A stretch of 64,000 nt of DNA, taken from the NCBI RefSeq assembly GCF_014199215.1, contig NZ_JACIJC010000005.1, forward strand, positions 124,001 through 188,000. The letters run 5' to 3'. Each line of letters starts with the position of its first letter. Within the stretch, counting starts at the first letter, position 1. Position numbers and translations under genes: made by a program. Positions 1,137 through 48,157 of this stretch are shown here, piece after piece. This stretch comes from Sphingobium boeckii. Its GTDB lineage: Bacteria; Pseudomonadota; Alphaproteobacteria; Sphingomonadales; Sphingomonadaceae. A model generated the notes under the pieces. It was not told the DNA's origin. It saw only the letters and a program-made list of their open reading frames with translations, and made no database searches.

Positions 1137-1210
1137 CCGTTTGTCCCGAGCGCAGTCGAGGGACGTGGGATTATGCACAAACGTGTCTCGACTGCGCTCG
1201 ACACAAACGG
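1137..1210. repeat. Family A palindromic repeat (copy A1) upstream of hemF
   Basis: Two inverted arms of about 30 nt. The left begins CCGTTTGTCCCGAGCG and the right, read on the other strand, begins CCGTTTGTGTCGAGCG; about 14 nt separate them. It lies immediately 5' of hemF on the minus strand and extends the hemF frame without a stop. Confidence 0.85.
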
Positions 1211-4870: not shown

Positions 4871-4900
4871 CCGTTTGTCCCGAGCGAAGTCGAGGGACGT
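4871..4900. repeat. Family A palindromic repeat, single arm (copy A2)
   Basis: One arm only, beginning CCGTTTGTCCCGAGCG and ending CGAGGGACGT; the inverted partner is absent. It lies between the apt remnant and the 3' end of the MaoC-type gene. Confidence 0.8.
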
Positions 4901-6725: not shown

Positions 6726-6753
6726 TGTCATTCCCGCGCAGGCGGGAATGACA
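6726..6753. repeat. Family C hairpin repeat, possible ychF terminator
   Basis: A perfect 12-base stem (TGTCATTCCCGC / GCGGGAATGACA) with a 4-base loop, 18 bases beyond the ychF stop. The position would suit transcription termination, but there is no clear T-run. The same core recurs at 7889, 45738 and 49697, so it is a dispersed repeat. Confidence 0.75.
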
Positions 6754-7888: not shown

Positions 7889-7973
7889 TGTCATCCTCGC
7901 GAAAGCGGGGATCCAAGGATGCCCGTGCGAGTCTCGAATATCGTATGGATTCCCGCTTTCGCGGGAATGACAA
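7889..7973. repeat. Family C double hairpin between pth and ychF
   Basis: Two related hairpins: GTCATCCTCGCGAAAGCGGGG at 7889 and ATTCCCGCTTTCGCGGGAAT ending near 7969, separated by about 40 nt. It fills almost the whole gap between the pth stop and the ychF start. It may modulate read-through from pth into ychF. Confidence 0.7.
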
Positions 7974-9388: not shown

Positions 9389-9460
9389 CCGTTTGTGCCG
9401 AGCGCAGTCGGGGCGCGTTGCCGCAAGTGCAGGTGTCTCGACTGCGCGCGACACGAACGG
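9389..9460. repeat. Family A palindromic repeat (copy A3)
   Basis: Both arms are present but diverged: the left begins CCGTTTGTGCCGAGCGC and the right ends CGACACGAACGG. It lies between the rplY promoter region and the 3' end of the first TraB/GumN gene. Confidence 0.8.
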
Positions 9461-10451: not shown

Positions 10452-10523
10452 CCGTTGTCCCGAGCGAGTGGAGGGACGTGGGTAACAGTTCCAACGTCCC
10501 TCGACTACGCTCGGGACAAACGG
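10452..10523. repeat. Family A palindromic repeat (copy A4) between TraB/GumN paralogues
   Basis: Two nearly matching inverted arms, left CCGTTGTCCCGAGCG and right CGCTCGGGACAAACGG, spaced by about 12 nt. It ends directly before the stop of the upstream TraB/GumN gene (minus strand) and fills much of the intergenic gap, so it may act as a terminator or processing stem. Confidence 0.85.
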
Positions 10524-12476: not shown

Positions 12477-12549
12477 CCGTTTGTGTCGAGCGCAGTCGAG
12501 ACACGTCTGTCGCTGCACCACGTCCCTCGACTTCGCTCGGGACCAACGG
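12477..12549. repeat. Family A palindromic repeat (copy A5) between glyQ and glyS
   Basis: Full element with both arms: left CCGTTTGTGTCGAGCGC, right ending CGCTCGGGACCAACGG. It begins 18 bases after the glyQ stop and ends 18 bases before the glyS ATG, so it forms a stem in the mRNA between two subunits needed in equal amounts. Confidence 0.87.
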
Positions 12550-12567: not shown

Positions 12568-15009
12568 ATGACTGATTTCCTGCTCGAACTGCGCTGCGAG
12601 GAAATCGCCGCGCGGATGCAAGTGAAGGCGTCGGATGATCTGGCGCGCCTGTTTGCCGAGGAACTCGCCAAGGCCGGTCTCAAGCCCGCGTCGATCGAGA
12701 GCTTCGTCACGCCGCGGCGGCTCGCGCTGATCGCACGCGGCTTGCCTGCGCAGACCGAGGCGGTGAGCGAGGAACGCAAAGGCCCGCGCGCCGATGCGCC
12801 CGAACAGGCGCTGGCGGGGTTTCTGCGCTCTACCGGCCTCACGCGCGAGCAACTGGTGGAGCGGCCCGATGCCAAGGGCGTCGGCATCCTTTTTGCGGTG
12901 ATCGAAAAGCCGGGTCGCGCCACCGCCGACGTGCTGGCCGAAGCCGTGCCCGCGATCGTGCGCGCTTTTCCCTGGCCCAAATCGATGCGCTGGGGCGCGG
13001 CGAGCCAGACGACCGAGAGTCTCCGCTGGGTGCGTCCGTTGCAGGGGATTGTCGCGCTGTTCGGCGACGATCTGGTGCCGCTGGAGATTGACGGCCTTGC
13101 GAGCGGCTACACCACGGTCGGCCACCGCTTCCATCATCACGGCGAGATCACGATCGGCAATGCCGATGATTATGCCGTGAAATTGCGCGCGGCGCATGTG
13201 ATCGTCTCGCATAAGGAGCGTCAGGCGATCATCGCGGAGAAAGCCGCCGAGGCTGCGGCTTCAAAGGGTTATACGCTGATCGAGGATCAGGGGCTGGTCG
13301 CGGAGAATGCGGGGCTGACCGAATGGCCGGTGCCGCTGATCGGCGCTTTCGATCCGGCCTTTCTGGAGGTGCCGCCCGAGGTGATCCAGTTGACGCTGCG
13401 CATCAATCAGAAATATTTCGTGCTGCGCGATGGTGCCGGCAAACTTGCGCCCGCCTTCATCTGCACCGCCAATATCGAGGCGAAAGACGGCGGCGCCGCG
13501 ATCGTGGCGGGCAATCGCAAGGTGCTGGCAGCACGGCTGTCGGATGCGCGCTTCTTCTGGGAGCAGGACAAGAAGACCCGGCTTGAGGATCACGCGAAGA
13601 AGCTGGAGCGGATCACCTTCCACGAAAAGCTGGGCACCGTGGCCGACAAGGTGGAGCGGGTGGCGAAGCTGGCACGCTGGCTGGTGGAAGAGGGGATTGT
13701 CGGGGGAGAGAATACCTCTGGCACATCCAATCCCGTTGGTGTCGAGCGCAGTCGAGACACGTCCGGTGCGGGCGACCAACGTCCCTCGACCCTTCGGCTT
13801 CGCTCAGGAGAGCCTTCGCTCGGGACAAACGGTGATTTGGCCGATCTCGCCGAACAGGCCGCGCGCCTCGCCAAGGCCGATCTCGTCACCGAAATGGTCG
13901 GGGAATTTCCCGAACTCCAGGGCGTGATGGGCGGCTATTACGCCCGCGCCGAAGGCCTGCCCGATGCGGTCGCCGACGCGATCCGCGATCATTACAAGCC
14001 GGTCGGCCAGGGCGATGATGTGCCGACCGCGCCGGTGACGGTGGCGGTGAGTTTGGCGGATAAACTGGATACGATCGTTGGATTTTTTGCTGCTGGCGAG
14101 CAGCCGACGGGATCAAAGGATCCTTATGCCATCCGCCGTGCGGTTTTGGGCATCTTGAGAACTATTCAGTTGGGCGATTATCGAGTTCTGATGATCAAAG
14201 TGCTGGCACGTGCGGCAACACCTATTTTGGGCCAATTGTTGGAAGAGCCGTATTTATCGAATTACGATGCTCATAATTTAGTGGGGCGCGGTTTTGTTTC
14301 TCAAAAGCCATATCTCGACGATAACCAGAAAATTACGGGAGCGGGTGCCTACTTTCGATCGACCGTGGTGCATGGGTTGCCAGCGCTTGCGTCCTTTTTC
14401 GCAGACCGTCTTAAGGTTCAGCAGCGTGAAGCCGGCGTCCGTCACGATTTGATCGACGCCGTATTTGCGCTGGGCGGAGAGGACGATCTTGTCCGTCTGC
14501 TTGCGCGGGTGAAGGCGTTGCAGGCGTTTGTGGAGACCGGGGAGGGGGCGAACCTGCTGGCGGGTTACAAGCGCGCTGCGAATATTCTGAAGAAAGAAGG
14601 CTTCTCCAATCCCTCTCCCCCTTCAGGGGGAGAGGGGGGAGCCGCGACAGCGGCGGAGGGAGAGGGGGACCGTTTGGTGTCTGGCGACTCCCCCCGCTCC
14701 CCGGCTCGCGAGGCTCGCCGACCCTCTCCCCCTGAAGGGGGGGAGGGTTATGCACCCGAACCCGCGGAAGCCGCGCTGCTCGCCGCGCTCGATGCCGCCG
14801 AACCCGCCGCCGATGCAGCCATTCAGGCGGAGAATTTCGAAGGCGCGATGGCGGCGCTGGCCAGCCTGCGCGCGCCGATCGATGCGTTTTTCGAGCATGT
14901 GACGGTGAATGATGTCGATCCGGCCAAGCGGGCAGCGCGGCTGGGAATGCTCGCGCGGGTGCGCGATGCGGTTCACCGCGTGGCGGATTTTTCGAAGATA
15001 GAGGGGTAA
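12568..15009 (+). CDS. glyS: Glycine--tRNA ligase beta subunit, with two in-frame repeat insertions
   Basis: The tRNA-binding beta subunit of glycyl-tRNA synthetase, 813 residues from the ATG at 12568 (MTDFLLELRCEEIAARMQ; GAGG upstream), longer than the roughly 700 usual for the family. Conserved blocks include FVTPRRLALIARGLP, KSMRWG, GHRFHHHGEI, RLSDARFFWEQDKKTRLEDH, FHEKLGTVADK and the C-terminal INDAVFA-like LIDAVFALGGEDDLVRLLARV. Two insertions keep the frame: a family A repeat at 13733-13832 (between IVGGENTSG and DLADLAEQ) and a family B repeat at 14611-14747 (between LKKEGFSN and YAPEPAEAALL). A block at about 14090-14420 is AT-richer, with codons such as TTA, AGA and ATT unlike its surroundings. 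Whether the insertions affect activity is unknown; they lie where loops are expected. Confidence 0.95.
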   Translation: MTDFLLELRCEEIAARMQVKASDDLARLFAEELAKAGLKPASIESFVTPRRLALIARGLPAQTEAVSEERKGPRADAPEQALAGFLRSTGLTREQLVERPDAKGVGILFAVIEKPGRATADVLAEAVPAIVRAFPWPKSMRWGAASQTTESLRWVRPLQGIVALFGDDLVPLEIDGLASGYTTVGHRFHHHGEITIGNADDYAVKLRAAHVIVSHKERQAIIAEKAAEAAASKGYTLIEDQGLVAENAGLTEWPVPLIGAFDPAFLEVPPEVIQLTLRINQKYFVLRDGAGKLAPAFICTANIEAKDGGAAIVAGNRKVLAARLSDARFFWEQDKKTRLEDHAKKLERITFHEKLGTVADKVERVAKLARWLVEEGIVGGENTSGTSNPVGVERSRDTSGAGDQRPSTLRLRSGEPSLGTNGDLADLAEQAARLAKADLVTEMVGEFPELQGVMGGYYARAEGLPDAVADAIRDHYKPVGQGDDVPTAPVTVAVSLADKLDTIVGFFAAGEQPTGSKDPYAIRRAVLGILRTIQLGDYRVLMIKVLARAATPILGQLLEEPYLSNYDAHNLVGRGFVSQKPYLDDNQKITGAGAYFRSTVVHGLPALASFFADRLKVQQREAGVRHDLIDAVFALGGEDDLVRLLARVKALQAFVETGEGANLLAGYKRAANILKKEGFSNPSPPSGGEGGAATAAEGEGDRLVSGDSPRSPAREARRPSPPEGGEGYAPEPAEAALLAALDAAEPAADAAIQAENFEGAMAALASLRAPIDAFFEHVTVNDVDPAKRAARLGMLARVRDAVHRVADFSKIEG
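13733..13832. repeat. Family A palindromic repeat (copy A6) inside glyS
   Basis: Left arm begins CCGTTGGTGTCGAGCGC, right arm ends TTCGCTCGGGACAAACGG. The right arm carries about 24 extra bases (CCTTCGGCTTCGCTCAGGAG and following), partly a duplication of CTTCGCTC, making this copy 100 nt. It is translated in frame as part of GlyS (peptide includes VGVERSRDTSGAGDQ and SGEPSLGTNG). Confidence 0.88.
14611..14747. repeat. Family B palindromic repeat (copy B2) inside glyS
   Basis: Outer cores CCCTCTCCCCCTTCAGGGGG at 14611 and ACCCTCTCCCCCTGAAGGGG ending near 14740 form inverted ends around a GC-rich middle (including GGCTCGCGAGGC). It is translated in frame with no stop, giving a Ser/Pro/Gly/Glu-rich peptide (SPPSGGEGG... 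RPSPPEGGEG) in GlyS. Confidence 0.85.
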
Positions 15010-15012
15010 AGC

Positions 15013-15122
15013 CCTCTTTCCTTTAGGGGCGAGGGTTGGGAGAGGGGCGTTTTCATCGACAAAAGGGCCGGCGCGCGAGGACACTCCCCCTCGCCCCGGC
15101 CCTCTCCCCCAAAGGGGAGAGG
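15013..15122. repeat. Family B palindromic repeat (copy B3) between glyS and ppdK
   Basis: An imperfect inverted element with CCCTCTTTCCTTTAGGGGCG at the left and CCCTCTCCCCCAAAGGGGAG at the right. It fills the gap between the glyS stop and the ppdK ATG (15131) and also supplies the purine-rich GGGGAGAGGGAGCAAGA just before the ppdK start, so it probably provides the ribosome-binding site. Confidence 0.8.
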
Positions 15123-15130
15123 GAGCAAGA

Positions 15131-17782
15131 ATGACCCAATATGTGTATCGTTTCGGCGGCGGTGTTTCCGAAAGCGGCGAGCGCGACAAGAATCTGCTCG
15201 GCGGCAAGGGCGCCAATCTGGATGGCATGGCCTCGATCGGCCTGCCGGTCCCGCCGGGCTTCACCATCACCACGGAAATGTGCACGCGCTATTATGACGA
15301 TGGCGAGGTCTTTCCCGAGAGCCTGCGCGCCGAAGTCGCCAATGGCATCGCGCATATCGAGAGCGTGACGGGCAAAAAATTCGGCGACAATGCCGACCCA
15401 CTTCTGGTGTCGGTCCGTTCGGGCGCGCGCGTCTCCATGCCCGGCATGATGGATACGGTGCTCAATCTGGGTCTCAATGACGAGACGGTGAAGGGTCTGG
15501 CGGATGTGTCCGGCGACGCGCGTTTCGCCTGGGACAGCTATCGCCGCTTCATCCAGATGTATGCCGATGTGGTGCTCGAACTCGATCATGGATCGTTCGA
15601 AGAAGCGCTTGAAATCGCCAAGGAAGACAAGGGTTTCTTCCTCGACACCGAATTGACCGCCGAAGATCTGAAGGCGCTGGTCGGCGCATATAAGCAACTC
15701 GTGCAGGATCAATGGGGCAAGCCCTTCCCGCAGGATGTGCATGACCAGCTCTGGGGCGCGGTCGGCGCGGTGTTCGGATCGTGGCAGTCGGAGCGCGCGA
15801 AGGTCTATCGCCGGCTCAATGCGATCCCGCATGATTGGGGCACTGCGGTCAATGTGCAGGCGATGGTGTTCGGCAATATGGGTGAAACCTCCGCGACGGG
15901 CGTGGCCTTCACGCGCGATCCCGCGACCGGCGAGCGCGCTTATTATGGCGAGTTCCTGATCAATGCGCAGGGCGAAGATGTGGTGGCGGGCATCCGCACC
16001 CCGCAATATCTGACCACCGCCGCGCGCACCCGCGCCAATGCCAAGCCGCTGTCGATGGAAGAGGCGATGCCGGAGGTGTTCGGTGAGCTGGCCAAGGTGT
16101 TCGATCTGCTCGAAAATCATTACACCGACATGCAGGATATCGAGTTCACCGTGGAACGCGGCAAGCTCTGGATGCTGCAGACCCGTTCGGGCAAGCGCAC
16201 TGCCAAGGCGGCGCTCAAGATCGCGGTCGATATGGCGAGCGAAGGGCTGATCACGCAGGAAGAAGCGATTGCGCGCGTCGATCCGTCGGCGCTCGATCAA
16301 TTGCTCCATCCCACGCTTGATCCCAAGGCGGTGCGCGATGTGCTCGCCAAGGGGCTGCCGGCTTCTCCTGGCGCGGCCTCGGGCATTGCGGTGTTCGATA
16401 GCGACACTGCCGAGAAGCGCGCGGAGATGGGCGAAAGCGTGATCCTGATCCGCACCGAAACCTCGCCGGAAGACATTCACGGGATGCACGCAGCCCGTGG
16501 CATCCTCACCGCGCGCGGCGGGATGACCAGCCACGCCGCCGTGGTGGCGCGCGGCATGGGACGTCCCTGCGTCTCCGGGGTCGGCACGCTGGCGATCGAC
16601 GCCAAGGCGAAATTGATGCGCGTGGCGGGCCGCGAGGTGCGTGAGGGCGATGTGGTCACGATCGACGGCTCCACCGGCGAAGTGATGTTCGGCGCGGTCG
16701 ATACGATCCAGCCGGAGCTGGCAGGCGATTTCGGCACTCTGATGGTGTGGGCGGACAAGGTCCGTCGCCTGAAGGTGCGCGCGAATGCGGAAACGCCGCT
16801 GGATTGCACAGTGGCGCGGGAATTCGGCGCCGAGGGCGTGGGCCTGTGCCGCACCGAGCATATGTTCTTCGACGCTGCGCGGATCACCGCGGTGCGCCAG
16901 ATGATCCTGGCGGATAGCGAGGCCGGACGCCGTGTGGCGCTGGAGAGACTGCTCCCCGAGCAGCGCAAGGATTTCACCGAGATTTTCGAGGTGATGGCGG
17001 GCCTGCCCGTGACGATCCGCTTGCTCGATCCGCCGTTGCACGAATTCCTGCCGCATGAAGAGGCCGAGTTTGACGAAGTGGCCAAGGCTGCTGACGTTTC
17101 GGTGGATACGCTCAAGCGCCGTGCGGCGGAGCTGCATGAATTCAATCCGATGCTCGGCCATCGCGGCTGCCGACTGGGCGTGACCTATCCCGAGATTTAT
17201 GAGATGCAGGCGCGCGCGATCTTCGAGGCCGCGCTCGATGTGGCGGAGACGCCGATTCCGGAGATCATGATCCCGCTGGTGGCCACGCGGCGCGAGCTGG
17301 AGCTGATGAAGGATCTGGTCGATCGGGTGGCCAAGGAGGTGTTCGCCGAACGCGGCAAGACGATCGACTATCTGGTCGGCACGATGATCGAACTGCCGCG
17401 CGCGGCGCTGATGGCGGGCGAGATTGCCGAAGTGGGCGAATTTTTCTCCTTCGGCACCAATGATCTGACGCAGACCACATTGGGTGTCTCCCGCGACGAT
17501 GCGGGCCGTTTCCTCACCACCTATGTCGACAAGGGCATCTTTGCGCGCGATCCGTTCGTGAGCCTGGACGTGGAAGGCGTGGGTCAGTTGATCACGCTGG
17601 CAGCGGAGCGGGGGAGGGCGACGCGCCCCGACATCAAGCTCGGCATTTGCGGAGAGCATGGAGGCGATCCCGCCTCGATCGCCTTTTGCGAGGAAACCGG
17701 CCTCGATTATGTATCGGCCTCGCCCTATCGCGTGCCGATCGCGCGGCTGGCTGCGGCTCAGGCGGCGCTCAAAGCCCGCTGA
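15131..17782 (+). CDS. ppdK: Pyruvate, phosphate dikinase
   Basis: PPDK interconverts pyruvate + ATP + Pi and phosphoenolpyruvate + AMP + PPi, giving reversible flux at the PEP node. The 883-residue protein has the N-terminal ATP-grasp domain (GGKGANLDGMASIGLPVPPG, residues about 18-37), the swivelling phosphohistidine domain with GGMTSHAAVVARGMGRPCV (catalytic His near residue 462), and the C-terminal PEP/pyruvate TIM barrel with GLCRTEHMFF, GTNDLTQTTLG and LGICGEHGGDPASI. Length and domain order are normal. It follows glyS and ends at a strong hairpin. Confidence 0.98.
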   Translation: MTQYVYRFGGGVSESGERDKNLLGGKGANLDGMASIGLPVPPGFTITTEMCTRYYDDGEVFPESLRAEVANGIAHIESVTGKKFGDNADPLLVSVRSGARVSMPGMMDTVLNLGLNDETVKGLADVSGDARFAWDSYRRFIQMYADVVLELDHGSFEEALEIAKEDKGFFLDTELTAEDLKALVGAYKQLVQDQWGKPFPQDVHDQLWGAVGAVFGSWQSERAKVYRRLNAIPHDWGTAVNVQAMVFGNMGETSATGVAFTRDPATGERAYYGEFLINAQGEDVVAGIRTPQYLTTAARTRANAKPLSMEEAMPEVFGELAKVFDLLENHYTDMQDIEFTVERGKLWMLQTRSGKRTAKAALKIAVDMASEGLITQEEAIARVDPSALDQLLHPTLDPKAVRDVLAKGLPASPGAASGIAVFDSDTAEKRAEMGESVILIRTETSPEDIHGMHAARGILTARGGMTSHAAVVARGMGRPCVSGVGTLAIDAKAKLMRVAGREVREGDVVTIDGSTGEVMFGAVDTIQPELAGDFGTLMVWADKVRRLKVRANAETPLDCTVAREFGAEGVGLCRTEHMFFDAARITAVRQMILADSEAGRRVALERLLPEQRKDFTEIFEVMAGLPVTIRLLDPPLHEFLPHEEAEFDEVAKAADVSVDTLKRRAAELHEFNPMLGHRGCRLGVTYPEIYEMQARAIFEAALDVAETPIPEIMIPLVATRRELELMKDLVDRVAKEVFAERGKTIDYLVGTMIELPRAALMAGEIAEVGEFFSFGTNDLTQTTLGVSRDDAGRFLTTYVDKGIFARDPFVSLDVEGVGQLITLAAERGRATRPDIKLGICGEHGGDPASIAFCEETGLDYVSASPYRVPIARLAAAQAALKAR

Positions 17783-32318: not shown

Positions 32319-32387
32319 CCGTTTGTCCCGAGCGAAGTCGAGGGACGTACTGCGGCCGGGTGTCTCGACTTCGCTCGACACGAACGG
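32319..32387. repeat. Family A palindromic repeat (copy A7) between gcvH and gcvPA
   Basis: Two arms, left CCGTTTGTCCCGAGCG and right ending CGCTCGACACGAACGG, with a short GC-rich spacer. It ends 8 bases before the gcvPA ATG and leaves that start with only a weak ribosome-binding site, so it could change expression within the operon. Confidence 0.87.
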
Positions 32388-33754: not shown

Positions 33755-35403
33755 GCATCAACCAGAGCGGATGGAAGCCCGCGATCGGCGACACCCAAGC
33801 GCCCGCCGCCGCCACCTACACCGGCAATCGCGCACTGATGCTGGAAGAGGCGCTGATCTTCGAGATTGGCGACACCCGGACCACGGGCGTCGATTTTTCT
33901 CCCTCTCCCCTTCAGGGGAGAGGGCCGGGGAGAGGGGAAGTCGGCGCAAGTGCAGGTGACGAAAATGCCCCTCTCCCAACCCTCTCCCCTGAAGGGGAGA
34001 GGGCTAACAGGCTCGGTGGACTCGAACGCACCGCGTCCTTCGGTCTGCCCGGCCTGTCCGAACCCGAAACGGTGCGCCATTATACGCGCCTCAGCCGCCA
34101 GAATTACGCGATCGACCTCGGCCTGTTTCCGCTCGGCTCCTGCACGATGAAGCATAATCCGCGCCTCAATGAAAAGGTGGCACGGATGCCCGGTTTCGCC
34201 GATCTGCATCCTTTGCAGACGATGGACACCGTGCAGGGCGCGCTCGGCGTGATTCACGAACTCGCGCATTGGCTCAAGACGCTCACCGGGATGCCAGCGG
34301 TGGCGATGAGTCCCAAGGCCGGCGCGCATGGCGAACTCTGCGGCCTGCTCGCGATCCGCTCTGCGCTGGAAGCCCGCGGGGACGCGCGTTCGGTGATCCT
34401 CGTCCCCGAAAGCGCGCATGGCACCAATCCGGCGACCGCGGCTTTCTGCGGCTATGGCGTGGAGAATATCCCCGCGACCGCCGAAGGACGCGTCGATCTG
34501 GCGGCGCTGACGGCGCGGCTGGGTCCGGATGTGGCGGCGGTGATGATCACCAATCCCAACACCTGCGGCCTGTTCGAGCGCGACATGAAGGCGATTTCGG
34601 ATGTGGTCCATGCAGCGGGCGCGCTGGTCTATTGCGATGGCGCGAATTTCAATGCCATCGTCGGTCGCGTGCGGCCTGGCGATCTCGGTATCGACGCGAT
34701 GCACATCAATCTGCACAAGACCTTTTCCACCCCGCATGGCGGCGGCGGTCCCGGCTCCGGCCCGGTGGTCTTTTCCGCCGCGCTTGCACCTTTTGCGCCG
34801 CTGCCCTTCGTCGAAAAGACCGACGCCGGCTATGTGCTGGTGGAGGAGGAGACCGCGGGCGAGCATCATGCGCAGAATTTCGGGCGGATGACGGCGTTCC
34901 ATGGTCAGATGGGCATGTTCACCCGCGCGCTCGCTTATATCATGAGCCATGGCGCGGATGGCTTGCGTCAGGTGGCCGAGGATGCAGTGCTCAATGCCAA
35001 TTATATCTTGCGGAGCCTGGACGGCGTGCTGGATGCGCCCTTCGGTGCCAGCGGCCCTTGTATGCACGAAGCGCTGTTCGCCGATGATGGCCTGGCCGAA
35101 GGGTTCAGCACGCTGGATATCGCCAAGGGGCTGATCGACGAAGGCTATCATCCGATGACGGTCTATTTCCCGCTGGTCGTCCATGGCGCGATGCTGGTGG
35201 AGCCGACCGAGACCGAGAGCAAGGCTGCGCTTGATCAGTTCATCGGCGCGCTGCGTTCGGTGGCGGAACGGGCCAAAGCGGGCGACGCTGCGCTCAAATC
35301 CGCGCCGCATTTTGCGCCGCGTCGCCGGCTCGACGAGACCCTGGCCGCCAGAAAGCCAGTGCTGGTGTGGAAAGAGCCGGTCGTGGCCGAGGCCGCGGAG
35401 TAA
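33751..35403 (+). CDS. gcvPB: Glycine dehydrogenase (decarboxylating) subunit 2, with an in-frame repeat insertion
   Basis: The PLP-binding half of the split P protein, 550 residues. Core motifs are [76 protein letters not shown] and [20 protein letters not shown], which holds the PLP Lys. Between residues about 50 ([10 protein letters not shown]) and 85 (NRLGGLERT) lies a Ser/Pro/Gly-rich stretch encoded by a family B palindrome (33901-34003) that does not belong to the family. The rest is continuous and normal, so the protein is probably functional. Confidence 0.96.
33901..34003. repeat. Family B palindromic repeat (copy B4) inside gcvPB
   Basis: Outer cores CCCTCTCCCCTTCAGGGGAG at 33901 and CCCTCTCCCCTGAAGGGGAG ending near 34000 are inverted. 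Between them lie AGGTGACGAAAATG and a CTCTCCCAA partial core. It is translated in frame in GcvPB (peptide includes [14 protein letters not shown] and [10 protein letters not shown]). Confidence 0.87.
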
Positions 35404-45737: not shown

Positions 45738-45823
45738 TGTCATTCCCACGAACGCTGGAATGCCGCTTTTTTGTCTTGCGCTGTCATAGCAAGAAGCCGG
45801 ATCCCCGCCCGCGCGGGGATGAC
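45738..45823. repeat. Family C double hairpin between glpD and rnr
   Basis: Hairpins TGTCATTCCCACG/AACGCTGGAATG near 45738 and ATCCCCGCCCGCGCGGGGAT ending near 45820 flank a TTTTTTGTC stretch. The first core matches the family C repeat elsewhere. It lies in the divergent glpD-rnr gap. Confidence 0.65.
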
Positions 45824-45853
45824 GGAAGGGTGCGGAGTGGCTATCTCTGTCTC

Positions 45854-48157
45854 ATGCCTAAAACAAAACACATCGGCCTGCCGTCCAAAAAGCAGATCCT
45901 CGAATTCATCACCACATCCGAAACCGCCGCCGGCAAGCGCGAGATTGCCAAGGCGTTCGGGCTGCAGGGCAATGAGAAGATCCTGCTGAAGGCGTTGCTG
46001 AAGGACATGGCGGACGAGGGACTGATCGACAGCGCGCCCGGTCGCGCCTTTCACAAGATGGGCGGTATTCCCAAGGTCACCGTGCTGCGCGTCACCGATG
46101 TGGACGAGGATGGGCAGGCCTGGGCCGTGCCGGAGCGCTGGGAGGCGAGCGGCCCCGAGCCGCGGCTGCGCGTGAAGGAGAAAAGCCGCAAGGGCGCGAT
46201 GGGGATTGGCGATCGCTTCCTCGCGCGGACCGAGGAAGCGGGCAGGGGCTGGATCGCGCATCCGATGAAGCAACTCGCCAAGGGCTCCGAACTGATGATG
46301 GGCGTGCTCCATGATGAGGGTGGCACGCTCTGGCTCAAGGGGCTCGACAAGAAGGAACGGCGCGACGTGCCCGTCTCCGACGCGGGCGGGGCCGGGGCGG
46401 GCGATCTGGTGATGGCTGAAAAGACGGGCCGGCCGCCGCGGATCACGGCGCGGGTAACCGAAAAATTGGGCGATCCGTTCGAACCGCGCAGTTTCTCGCT
46501 GATCGCGATCCACAAATTGGGCATCCCCCATGTGTTCGACGTGGATGTGATCGAGGACGCGGAACGGGTCGCCAAGCTCGATCTCGGTCAGAATCGCGAA
46601 GATCTGCGCCATCTCCCGATCGTTGCGATCGATCCCGCCGACGCGCGCGATCATGACGACGCGGTGTGGGCCGCGCCCGATGACGATCCCAAGAACCCCG
46701 GCGGCTGGAAGGCGATCGTCGCCATTGCCGATGTGAGCTTCTATGTGCGCCCCGGCTCGGCGATCGATCGCGAGGCCAAGAAACGGGGCAACAGCGTCTA
46801 TTTTCCCGATCGCGTGGTGCCGATGCTGCCTGAGAGCCTGTCCGCGGACATGTGTTCACTCAAGCAAGGCGTGGATCGCGCGGCGATGGCTTGCCACCTC
46901 ACGATCGCCGCGGACGGCACGCTCAAGGGCTGGCGCTTCACCCGCGCGATCGTGCGGCTGGCGGCGAACATCGCCTATGAGGATGCGCAGGCGGCGATCG
47001 ATGCCCATCATCTCCGTTTGTCCCGAGCGCAGTCGAGAGACGTGGGGACAGATCGGGATGATGTCTCGCCTGCGCTCGACACCAACGGATTGGGGGATCT
47101 GCTCGAGACCGCCCTGGTGCCGCTCTGGGCCTGCTGGAAGCTGCTGTTCGCCGCTCGCGAGAAGCGCGCGCCGCTCGATCTCGATCTGCCCGAACGCAAG
47201 ATCTCGCTCGACGAAATGGGTCGCATCCTCTCGGTCGCACCGCGCGAGCGGCTCGATGCGCATAAATTGATCGAGGATTATATGATCGCGGCCAATGTCG
47301 CGGCGGCCAAGGCGCTGGAGGGCAAGAAGGCACCGGTGATGTACCGCGTCCACGAACCGCCCTCGCGCGAGAAATTGGTGGCGTTGAAGGAATATCTCAA
47401 GACGTTCGAGGTGGAGTTTGCGCTTGGTCAGGTCGTGCGTCCCGATACCTTCAATCATGTCATCCGCCGCGTCGGCGATGCCGATTTCAAGCCGCAGATC
47501 ATGGAGCAGATCCTGCGGACCCAGACCCAGGCCTATTATGCGCCGATCAACCAGGGGCATTTCGGTCTCGCGCTGGGCAGCTATGGTCATTTCACGTCGC
47601 CAATCCGGCGCTATGCGGATCTGATCGTCCACCGGTCTCTGGTCACGGCGTTCGGGCTGGGCGAGGGCGGGCTGACCGCCGATGAGGCGAGCCGGATGGA
47701 ACCCATCGGCGAGATGATCTCCACGCTTGAACGCCGCGCGATGGAAGCAGAGCGCGATACCACCGATCGCTATGTCGCGGCCTATCTCAGCGAGCGGGTC
47801 GGCCAGATCATGGACGTGCGGATCACCGGTGTACAGAATTTCGGATTTTTCGCCACGGTGGAAGGCCTGGGCGGAGACGGGATCGTTCCCGTGCGCGATC
47901 TGGGCGGCGAATATTTCCGTTATGACGAAGCCACGCACAGCCTGACCGGCGAAGATACGCAGACGCGCTACGCCAGCGGGCAAAGGCTGCAATTGCGGCT
48001 GGCGGAAGCCAATCCGGTCAATGGCGCGCTGCGCTTCGAATTGCCGGAAGGGAAGGGGGCGGCGGGGCCGCCGCGGGGCGGCAAGGGCAAGCATGGCCGG
48101 CCGATCATCCACCGCGGACGGCCCGCGAACATCCGGCATCAGGGACGCAAGCGCTGA
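45854..48157 (+). CDS. rnr: Ribonuclease R, with an in-frame repeat insertion
   Basis: A 767-residue 3'-5' exoribonuclease of the RNB family. Domains: N-terminal helix-turn-helix (residues about 5-70, KREIAKAFGLQGNEKILLKA), cold-shock domains (about 75-230), RNB core with PIVAIDPADARDHDDAVWA (catalytic acids near residue 260), SVYFPDRVVPMLPESLS and HFTSPIRRYADLIVHR, then S1 (VGQIMDVRITGVQNFGFFAT) and a basic tail. In the RNB core, between NIAYEDAQAAIDA and LLETALVPLWACWKLL, about 25-30 residues are encoded by a family A palindrome (47014-47088) absent from the family pattern. The start ATG at 45854 begins MPKTKHIGLPSKKQ. Confidence 0.95.
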   Translation: MPKTKHIGLPSKKQILEFITTSETAAGKREIAKAFGLQGNEKILLKALLKDMADEGLIDSAPGRAFHKMGGIPKVTVLRVTDVDEDGQAWAVPERWEASGPEPRLRVKEKSRKGAMGIGDRFLARTEEAGRGWIAHPMKQLAKGSELMMGVLHDEGGTLWLKGLDKKERRDVPVSDAGGAGAGDLVMAEKTGRPPRITARVTEKLGDPFEPRSFSLIAIHKLGIPHVFDVDVIEDAERVAKLDLGQNREDLRHLPIVAIDPADARDHDDAVWAAPDDDPKNPGGWKAIVAIADVSFYVRPGSAIDREAKKRGNSVYFPDRVVPMLPESLSADMCSLKQGVDRAAMACHLTIAADGTLKGWRFTRAIVRLAANIAYEDAQAAIDAHHLRLSRAQSRDVGTDRDDVSPALDTNGLGDLLETALVPLWACWKLLFAAREKRAPLDLDLPERKISLDEMGRILSVAPRERLDAHKLIEDYMIAANVAAAKALEGKKAPVMYRVHEPPSREKLVALKEYLKTFEVEFALGQVVRPDTFNHVIRRVGDADFKPQIMEQILRTQTQAYYAPINQGHFGLALGSYGHFTSPIRRYADLIVHRSLVTAFGLGEGGLTADEASRMEPIGEMISTLERRAMEAERDTTDRYVAAYLSERVGQIMDVRITGVQNFGFFATVEGLGGDGIVPVRDLGGEYFRYDEATHSLTGEDTQTRYASGQRLQLRLAEANPVNGALRFELPEGKGAAGPPRGGKGKHGRPIIHRGRPANIRHQGRKR
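47014..47088. repeat. Family A palindromic repeat (copy A8) inside rnr
   Basis: Left arm begins CCGTTTGTCCCGAGCGC, right arm ends TGCGCTCGACACCAACGG. The 75-nt element is a multiple of three and is read in frame as LRLSRAQSRDV...DVSPALDTNG within ribonuclease R. Confidence 0.88.

Follow-up and report, generated by a model that had tools for sequence, protein, structure and literature searches.

How does a palindromic repeat come to lie, in frame, in the RNB region of ribonuclease R, and why at that particular place? The window analysed here, a 64,000-nucleotide stretch of a Sphingobium boeckii contig, carries rnr on its forward strand (45854..48157). The gene runs from an ATG at 45854 to a stop codon at 48155-48157 and encodes 767 aa; we read the whole ORF and found no frameshift. 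Pfam assigns an RNB domain (E=1.7e-89) and CSD2 (cold-shock domains). In our comparison set of 108 distinct RNase R proteins, which includes the best 80 of 583 confirmed matches, the motif D..D.DDA is present in every protein and HFTSPIRRYxDL in 102, and S. boeckii has both. Comparison of rnr with three congeners gave dN of 0.12-0.13 and dS of 0.79-0.95, a low dN/dS. The 75-nt element (47014-47088) contributes bases to codons 387-412. It consists of a 30-nt left REP arm with a GTCCC-type stem and one stem mismatch (47014..47043, forward strand), a 15-nt spacer (47044..47058) and an inverted 30-nt right arm of the GTGTC type (47059..47088, reverse strand). The right arm departs from the arm pattern at five positions and reads in frame as ..VSPALDTNG, and stem pairs have decayed in the arms of this copy. 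An initial annotation of this DNA had reported such an in-frame, two-armed element, and both the sequence and the intact ORF agree with it. Because the length of the element keeps the frame, it would be translated as a flexible peptide. A separate CGTC-like REP pair (TGTCATTCC.. / ..GGGGATGACG) is found at 45738-45825, just 5' of the rnr start codon, and similar units occur at 6730-6753 and 7949-7972.

In an AlphaFold model of RNase R (mean pLDDT 87), the insert is predicted as a low-confidence coil between two RNB helices (375-394 and 414-438), with block pLDDT values of 73 and 58 at the insert vs 87-98 in neighbouring blocks. Our orthologue set was built from 109 loci (29 from a search of relatives and 80 from named genomes) plus the window; near relatives are over-represented among its rows because the 80 were the top-ranking ones among 583 confirmed matches. 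In these 108 proteins the loop, bounded by NIAYEDAQAAID on one side and PLWACW on the other, is 8 to 65 aa long. It measures 36 aa in S. boeckii and has a median of 13 aa among the 70 short loops of the same set (best 80 of 583 included). The earlier estimate that the element adds about 25 residues calls for qualification: the loops of four congeners (L032-L035) are already 33-35 aa long and consist of unrelated, non-repeat sequence (SSPC..), so in this genus the element occupies the place of older sequence. No exact empty site was found among the congeners, since their loop sequence differs. L032-L036, L129, L130, L137, L157, L183, L185 and L187 have a long loop of another version, repeat-free and marked by a conserved motif resembling SSPC or SAPC, which is perhaps an old domesticated insert.

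The rnr element is one member of a large family. The arm pattern, with at most two mismatches allowed, has 251 matches in the 4.03-Mb S. boeckii genome, and the reversed pattern has 0. We sampled the window and 44 regions that surround the first 100 matches in the list, which yielded 76 elements. Inverted pairs account for 67 of the 76, most often 74 nt (31 elements) or 73 nt (22 elements) in length, and the spacer is 13-15 nt in 59 of the 67. Length is divisible by three in only 11 of the 67, the 75-nt rnr copy among them. Each arm is a hairpin by itself, with a GTCCC/GGGAC stem, inner pairs with a bulge and a CCGTT outer end, and compensatory changes are found in the stem across 143 arms: positions 9 and 26 are C-G in 105 arms and G-C in 32, while positions 10 and 25 are C-G in 107 and T-A in 31. 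Two main stem types are combined within 25 of the 67 pairs, and the flanks are A/T-rich over about 5 nt. Besides the rnr copy, the window holds paired copies at 1137..1210 (74 nt), 9389..9460 (diverged), 12477..12549 (just upstream of glyS) and 32319..32387 (69 nt), a single arm at 4871..4900 (forward strand) and an arm at 10494..10523 (reverse strand) with a diverged partner upstream. Two places elsewhere in the genome (L097, G000:C2 ~371659; L120, C4 ~466397) share both the element and its near flanks, which suggests a duplicated segment.

The initial annotation held that the arms are open in all six frames. This is nearly right: 84% of frame readings of the 67 paired elements are free of stops, compared with 52% for mononucleotide shuffles, but some readings are closed. 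Some open frame spans 37 of the 76 sampled elements. From 19 frames inspected by eye we picked eight elements lying in frame in Pfam-recognised genes, so that at least 8 of 76 is a lower bound. We take the hosts to be rnr, glyS, valS, ileS, putA, hrpB, murD and an acyltransferase gene, presumed identities that rest on Pfam domains and sequence; the acyltransferase copy sits in the linker of the 2-oxoacid dehydrogenase acyltransferase. In all eight cases one arm is read in one and the same frame, as judged by eye, giving peptides like STxLxTNG. The proposal that the family can enter genes without truncating them thus stands, given dispersed palindromes, these in-frame copies and an intact rnr. 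The arm pattern is patchy among relatives, with matches in 22 of 98 genomes searched and none in two of four congeners, and dispersion together with this patchiness suggests that the family is mobile. The S. boeckii genome has no Y1 transposase (PF01797, RAYT). Beside 28 Y1 loci of relatives, in flanks of up to 1.5 kb, we found no recognisable arm except a loose 24-nt match in L078.

Comparison across species places the RNase R loop apart from the rest of the protein. The loop block of the alignment carries at least 8 extra residues in 38 of the 108 proteins (best 80 of 583 included), more than any other block; the next, near the C-terminus, does so in 10. The loop is 20 aa or longer in 38 of the 108 and short in 70. 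The best inverted repeat of the gene falls within the loop in 21 of the 38 long-loop rnr genes vs 0 of the 70 others, again with the best 80 of 583 included; one of the 21, L189, has a weak inverted repeat that matches no family, and background scores in short-loop genes reach 14. The other 17 long loops lack the best inverted repeat of their gene. By eye, recognisable repeats of six sequence types are present in 24 of the 108 loops. The rnr-element family fills the loop in the window, L131, L040 (with its arms in reversed arrangement, CCGTT ends inside) and L185, and a CTGAGC-type relative of this family fills L144. CGTC-like repeats occupy L138, L141, L145, L147, L149, L155 and L200, diverged in L138 and L145 and reduced to a single hairpin in L200. 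Three GC-rich types, which may form one superfamily, occupy L161, L162, L171 and L175 (first), L039, L135, L140, L143 and L158 (second) and L168, L180 and L194 (third). Single-hairpin remnants of GC-rich type are found in two further loops, L153 and L208. Insert edges differ in position within the loops, and the 24 repeat-bearing loop peptides contain 16% hydrophobic residues vs 29%. In the same 108 proteins, with loops judged by eye, we saw no peptide of this kind in an orthologue without the DNA repeat, and the related peptides of L131, L040 and L185 come with it; neither this outcome nor a frameshift in rnr, the two that the initial annotation named as refuting its reading, was observed.

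Two side observations concern individual records in this set. The rnr of L185 (Allosphingosinicella vermicomposti) has a second palindrome, of the CTGAGC-type family, at about residue 249, outside the hot loop; no further palindrome outside the loop was noticed among the 108 proteins (best 80 of 583 included). L173, from a record titled Bacillus sp. 2B10, has a sphingomonad-type rnr and is probably a mislabelled or contaminated assembly.

RNase R is not the only protein with such loops. We compared GlyS, ValS and PPDK across 50 genomes drawn from the 80 named ones. Since the inserts in S. boeckii guided the choice of GlyS and ValS, these two give no measure of how common such loops are. S. boeckii glyS (12568..15009, forward strand), encoding the glycyl-tRNA synthetase beta subunit, contains two in-frame palindromic inserts of two families, at both of the loops that are hot in other sphingomonads. 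Loop 1 (13733..13833) holds a copy of the rnr-element family with a diverged second arm and an inverted-repeat score of 7, and loop 2 (14611..14747) holds a palindrome of a different, GGEG-type family. GlyS matches were obtained in 48 of 50 genomes; 43 loci were fetched and 3 incomplete ones dropped, leaving 40 plus the window. In these 41 genes, inserts of at least 18 aa occur in loop 1 in 29 and in loop 2 in 18. An inverted-repeat score of at least 13 was reached by 25 of these loop 1 inserts and by 11 of those in loop 2, and 27 of the 41 genes have their best inverted repeat in one or other of these loops. Around GlyS residues 560-605 (S. boeckii numbering) the sequence is poorly alignable between genomes and not repeat-like. 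ValS was matched in 50 of 50 genomes, and 30 loci were fetched in addition to the S. boeckii gene. The ValS loop used in S. boeckii bears inserts of at least 12 aa in 13 of these 31 genes, 12 of which score 13-31 (the S. boeckii copy scores 6), and two other variable ValS blocks contain no palindromes in the 31 genes. The negative control was the neighbour of glyS (15131..17782, forward strand), which we take from its sequence to be the gene for pyruvate phosphate dikinase (PPDK). It was matched in 48 of 50 genomes, with 30 loci fetched plus the window, and these 31 genes have no insert longer than 5 aa and no inverted-repeat score above 12. Copies of a further palindromic family, CCCTCTCCCC, lie at 15010-15135 and 33889-34005, some of which overlap the beginning of the PPDK gene. 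Recurrence of several families at the RNase R, GlyS and ValS loops, as read from these alignments, had been missed in the initial annotation.

The history of the RNase R loop appears to be one of turnover. We built a FastTree tree of 98 rows with the loop left out of the alignment and 10 distant rows omitted; 28 of its 95 inner branches have support below 80. On this tree, repeat presence (26 rows, remnants counted) needs 21 changes, gains and losses pooled, and family identity needs 23. The sister rows L141 and L171, 85% identical in DNA, carry different families at the loop, and short repeat-free loops neighbour repeat-bearing rows, as with L144 and L170. L140 and L143 have a full palindrome, and L153, which has 90% DNA identity to L143, is without the 81 nt between two CCCCTCCCG copies, a difference that leaves one hairpin and keeps the frame. 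Deletion in L153 is the likelier direction because a lone hairpin with the same ends remains, and the comparison indicates that in-frame deletion can reduce inserts to short scars.

The families at the loop, where tested, are dispersed in the genomes of their own hosts, with 7 to 212 arm matches each. Counted on both strands, CGTC-type arms have 115 matches in L155, 107 in L147, 132 in L149, 41 in L141, 14 in L145, 37 in L138 and 11 in L200, and arms of the CCGTTYG superfamily 111 in L144, 70 in L185 and 190 in L131, all with controls of 0. A stricter arm pattern has 140 matches in the L040 genome (G031). The third GC-rich type gave 28 matches in L168, 47 in L194 and 7 in L180 (controls 0), while a pattern common to the other two GC-rich types gave 7-212 in nine genomes with a full rnr repeat, counts that are less certain because reversed controls range from 0 to 67. 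Presence of a family alone does not fill the loop: for the CGTC, shared GC-rich, third GC-rich and CCGTTYG patterns, L132 has 0, 24, 9 and 25 matches and L170 has 37, 22, 21 and 31, and neither has an rnr insert.

We favour the explanation, to which we give a probability of roughly 0.7, that permissive loops let insertions persist, and that these drift, are lost through in-frame deletion and arise anew. The element would be a non-autonomous REP dimer of two imperfect inverted hairpins, mostly 73-75 nt long, dispersed through the genome by a putative mobilising activity. In rnr it would have landed, in a version of frame-keeping length, in the coil between two RNB helices, where the insert may well be neutral. 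Selection would purge insertions from most gene positions and spare them in a small number of loops (one in RNase R, one in ValS, loops 1 and 2 of GlyS). In each lineage such a loop would receive a palindrome from one of the families that its genome contains; it would then drift, or collapse when sequence between repeat copies is deleted in frame. Some loops in essential proteins thus look like places where palindromic repeats land again and again.

The loops could instead be hot because they are hit, and not only because they are tolerant, if some DNA feature there attracts the machinery of several REP families. In RNase R, GlyS and ValS several families recur only codons apart, which, like the A/T-rich flanks of about 5 nt around sampled elements, would fit such targeting. 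We consider it unlikely, as insert edges vary within loops, for most of the sample no recognised host gene was found (at least 8 of 76 have one) and no shared target word was identified. Less probable still is that an old insertion is repeatedly overwritten through recombination with other palindromes, so that a change of family need not mean a new insertion. The different families of L141 and L171 could be read in this way, but short repeat-free loops stand beside repeat rows (L144 and L170), and the families have, by eye, little sequence in common on which recombination could act. A function at the RNA level, in which RNase R would regulate its own mRNA through the rnr hairpin, comes to mind because RNase R, with PNPase, targets REP-containing mRNAs; action on such mRNAs is noted in the portion of a review used here (PMC12320835), and among 38 long-loop rnr genes there are 21 whose best inverted repeat is the insert itself. 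We regard this as very improbable: GlyS and ValS inserts, more frequent than those of RNase R in the former and similarly frequent in the latter, argue against a role peculiar to RNase R, 70 of the 108 proteins (best 80 of 583 included) have short loops, and the stem pairs of the rnr copy in the window have decayed. We found nothing in favour of rnr being a pseudogene or of the insert having arisen through sequencing or assembly error, and the intact frame, catalytic motifs, low dN/dS and similar inserts in other assemblies make either almost untenable.

REPINs are inverted REP doublets dispersed through a genome, and they are mainly extragenic. The S. boeckii elements resemble them in pairing two inverted REPs across a short spacer (67 of 76 sampled), and differ in that the genome has no RAYT and no recognisable arm lies beside the Y1 loci examined in relatives (28, the loose match in L078 apart). 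With REPs in general the family shares a short stem-loop unit, whose stem covaries in 143 arms, and a high copy number (251). BIMEs, as outlined in the excerpt of PMC2817692 used here, have REPs that alternate in orientation and mosaic arms; the S. boeckii family shares both features, with mosaic arms in 25 of 67 pairs, and is set apart by its coding location and recurrent loops.

The sections of PMC3733652 drawn on here (Di Nocera et al. 2013) describe REPs as short palindromes, often inverted dimers, with intragenic GTAG and CGTC types in alphaproteobacteria (S. wittichii and S. alaskensis among them); genes for tRNA synthetases are among those that have REPs inside. GTAG REPs have a terminal unpaired GTAG, which is found at either end of 0 of 143 S. 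boeckii arms. CGTC REPs, for which those sections report no dedicated transposase, have an 8-9 bp stem starting with A-T pairs, a loop of 4-5 nt, a CCA-like tail and an unpaired CGTC-like end (PMC3733652). In S. boeckii, 96 of 143 arms have CGTC at their inner end, with three of its four bases inside the stem, and, judged by that description, stem and tail differ (GTCCC/GGGAC, a bulge and a CCGTT end); the family may be distantly related to the CGTC REPs. The same sections state that Rickettsia RPEs insert in frame into protein genes, and assign RPE-6 and RPE-4 to CGTC-1 and CGTC-4 (PMC3733652). The parallel with RPEs drawn in the initial annotation is apt as a likeness of behaviour, in-frame insertion of palindromes into ORFs, which occurs here too. 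Novelty in kind is not supported, since in-frame intragenic REPs and RPEs are described in those sections; the S. boeckii element belongs to a known kind, while fitting neither described tag family fully. What is new is the site. In PMC3733652, as far as those sections go, recB of two Xanthomonas species holds different REPs at about the same place, and REPs in other genes of one category occupy different sites; here, in place of scattered sites, one loop is repeatedly occupied by several families in many species. We did not find recurrent loop sites described in the literature on REPINs/RAYTs, in-frame palindromes, and REPs in sphingomonads, in tRNA synthetase genes or in connection with RNase R, a search limited to openly available text.

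Short palindromic repeats would thus supply essential enzymes with new protein sequence again and again, at fixed positions. For annotators, peptides like STALDTNG or PHPNPSPEGEG within proteins can mark inserted repeats. The many species, several families, and occupied and collapsed alleles provide natural replicates for asking whether such inserts are tolerated, targeted or used. A bolder proposal is that the RNase R, GlyS and ValS loops are lineage-wide landing pads, actively preferred or positively selected, with families steered to or kept there and the inserted hairpins possibly controlling mRNA. We find this doubtful on present evidence; if it were true, sphingomonads would keep renewing parts of their essential enzymes from mobile palindromes.
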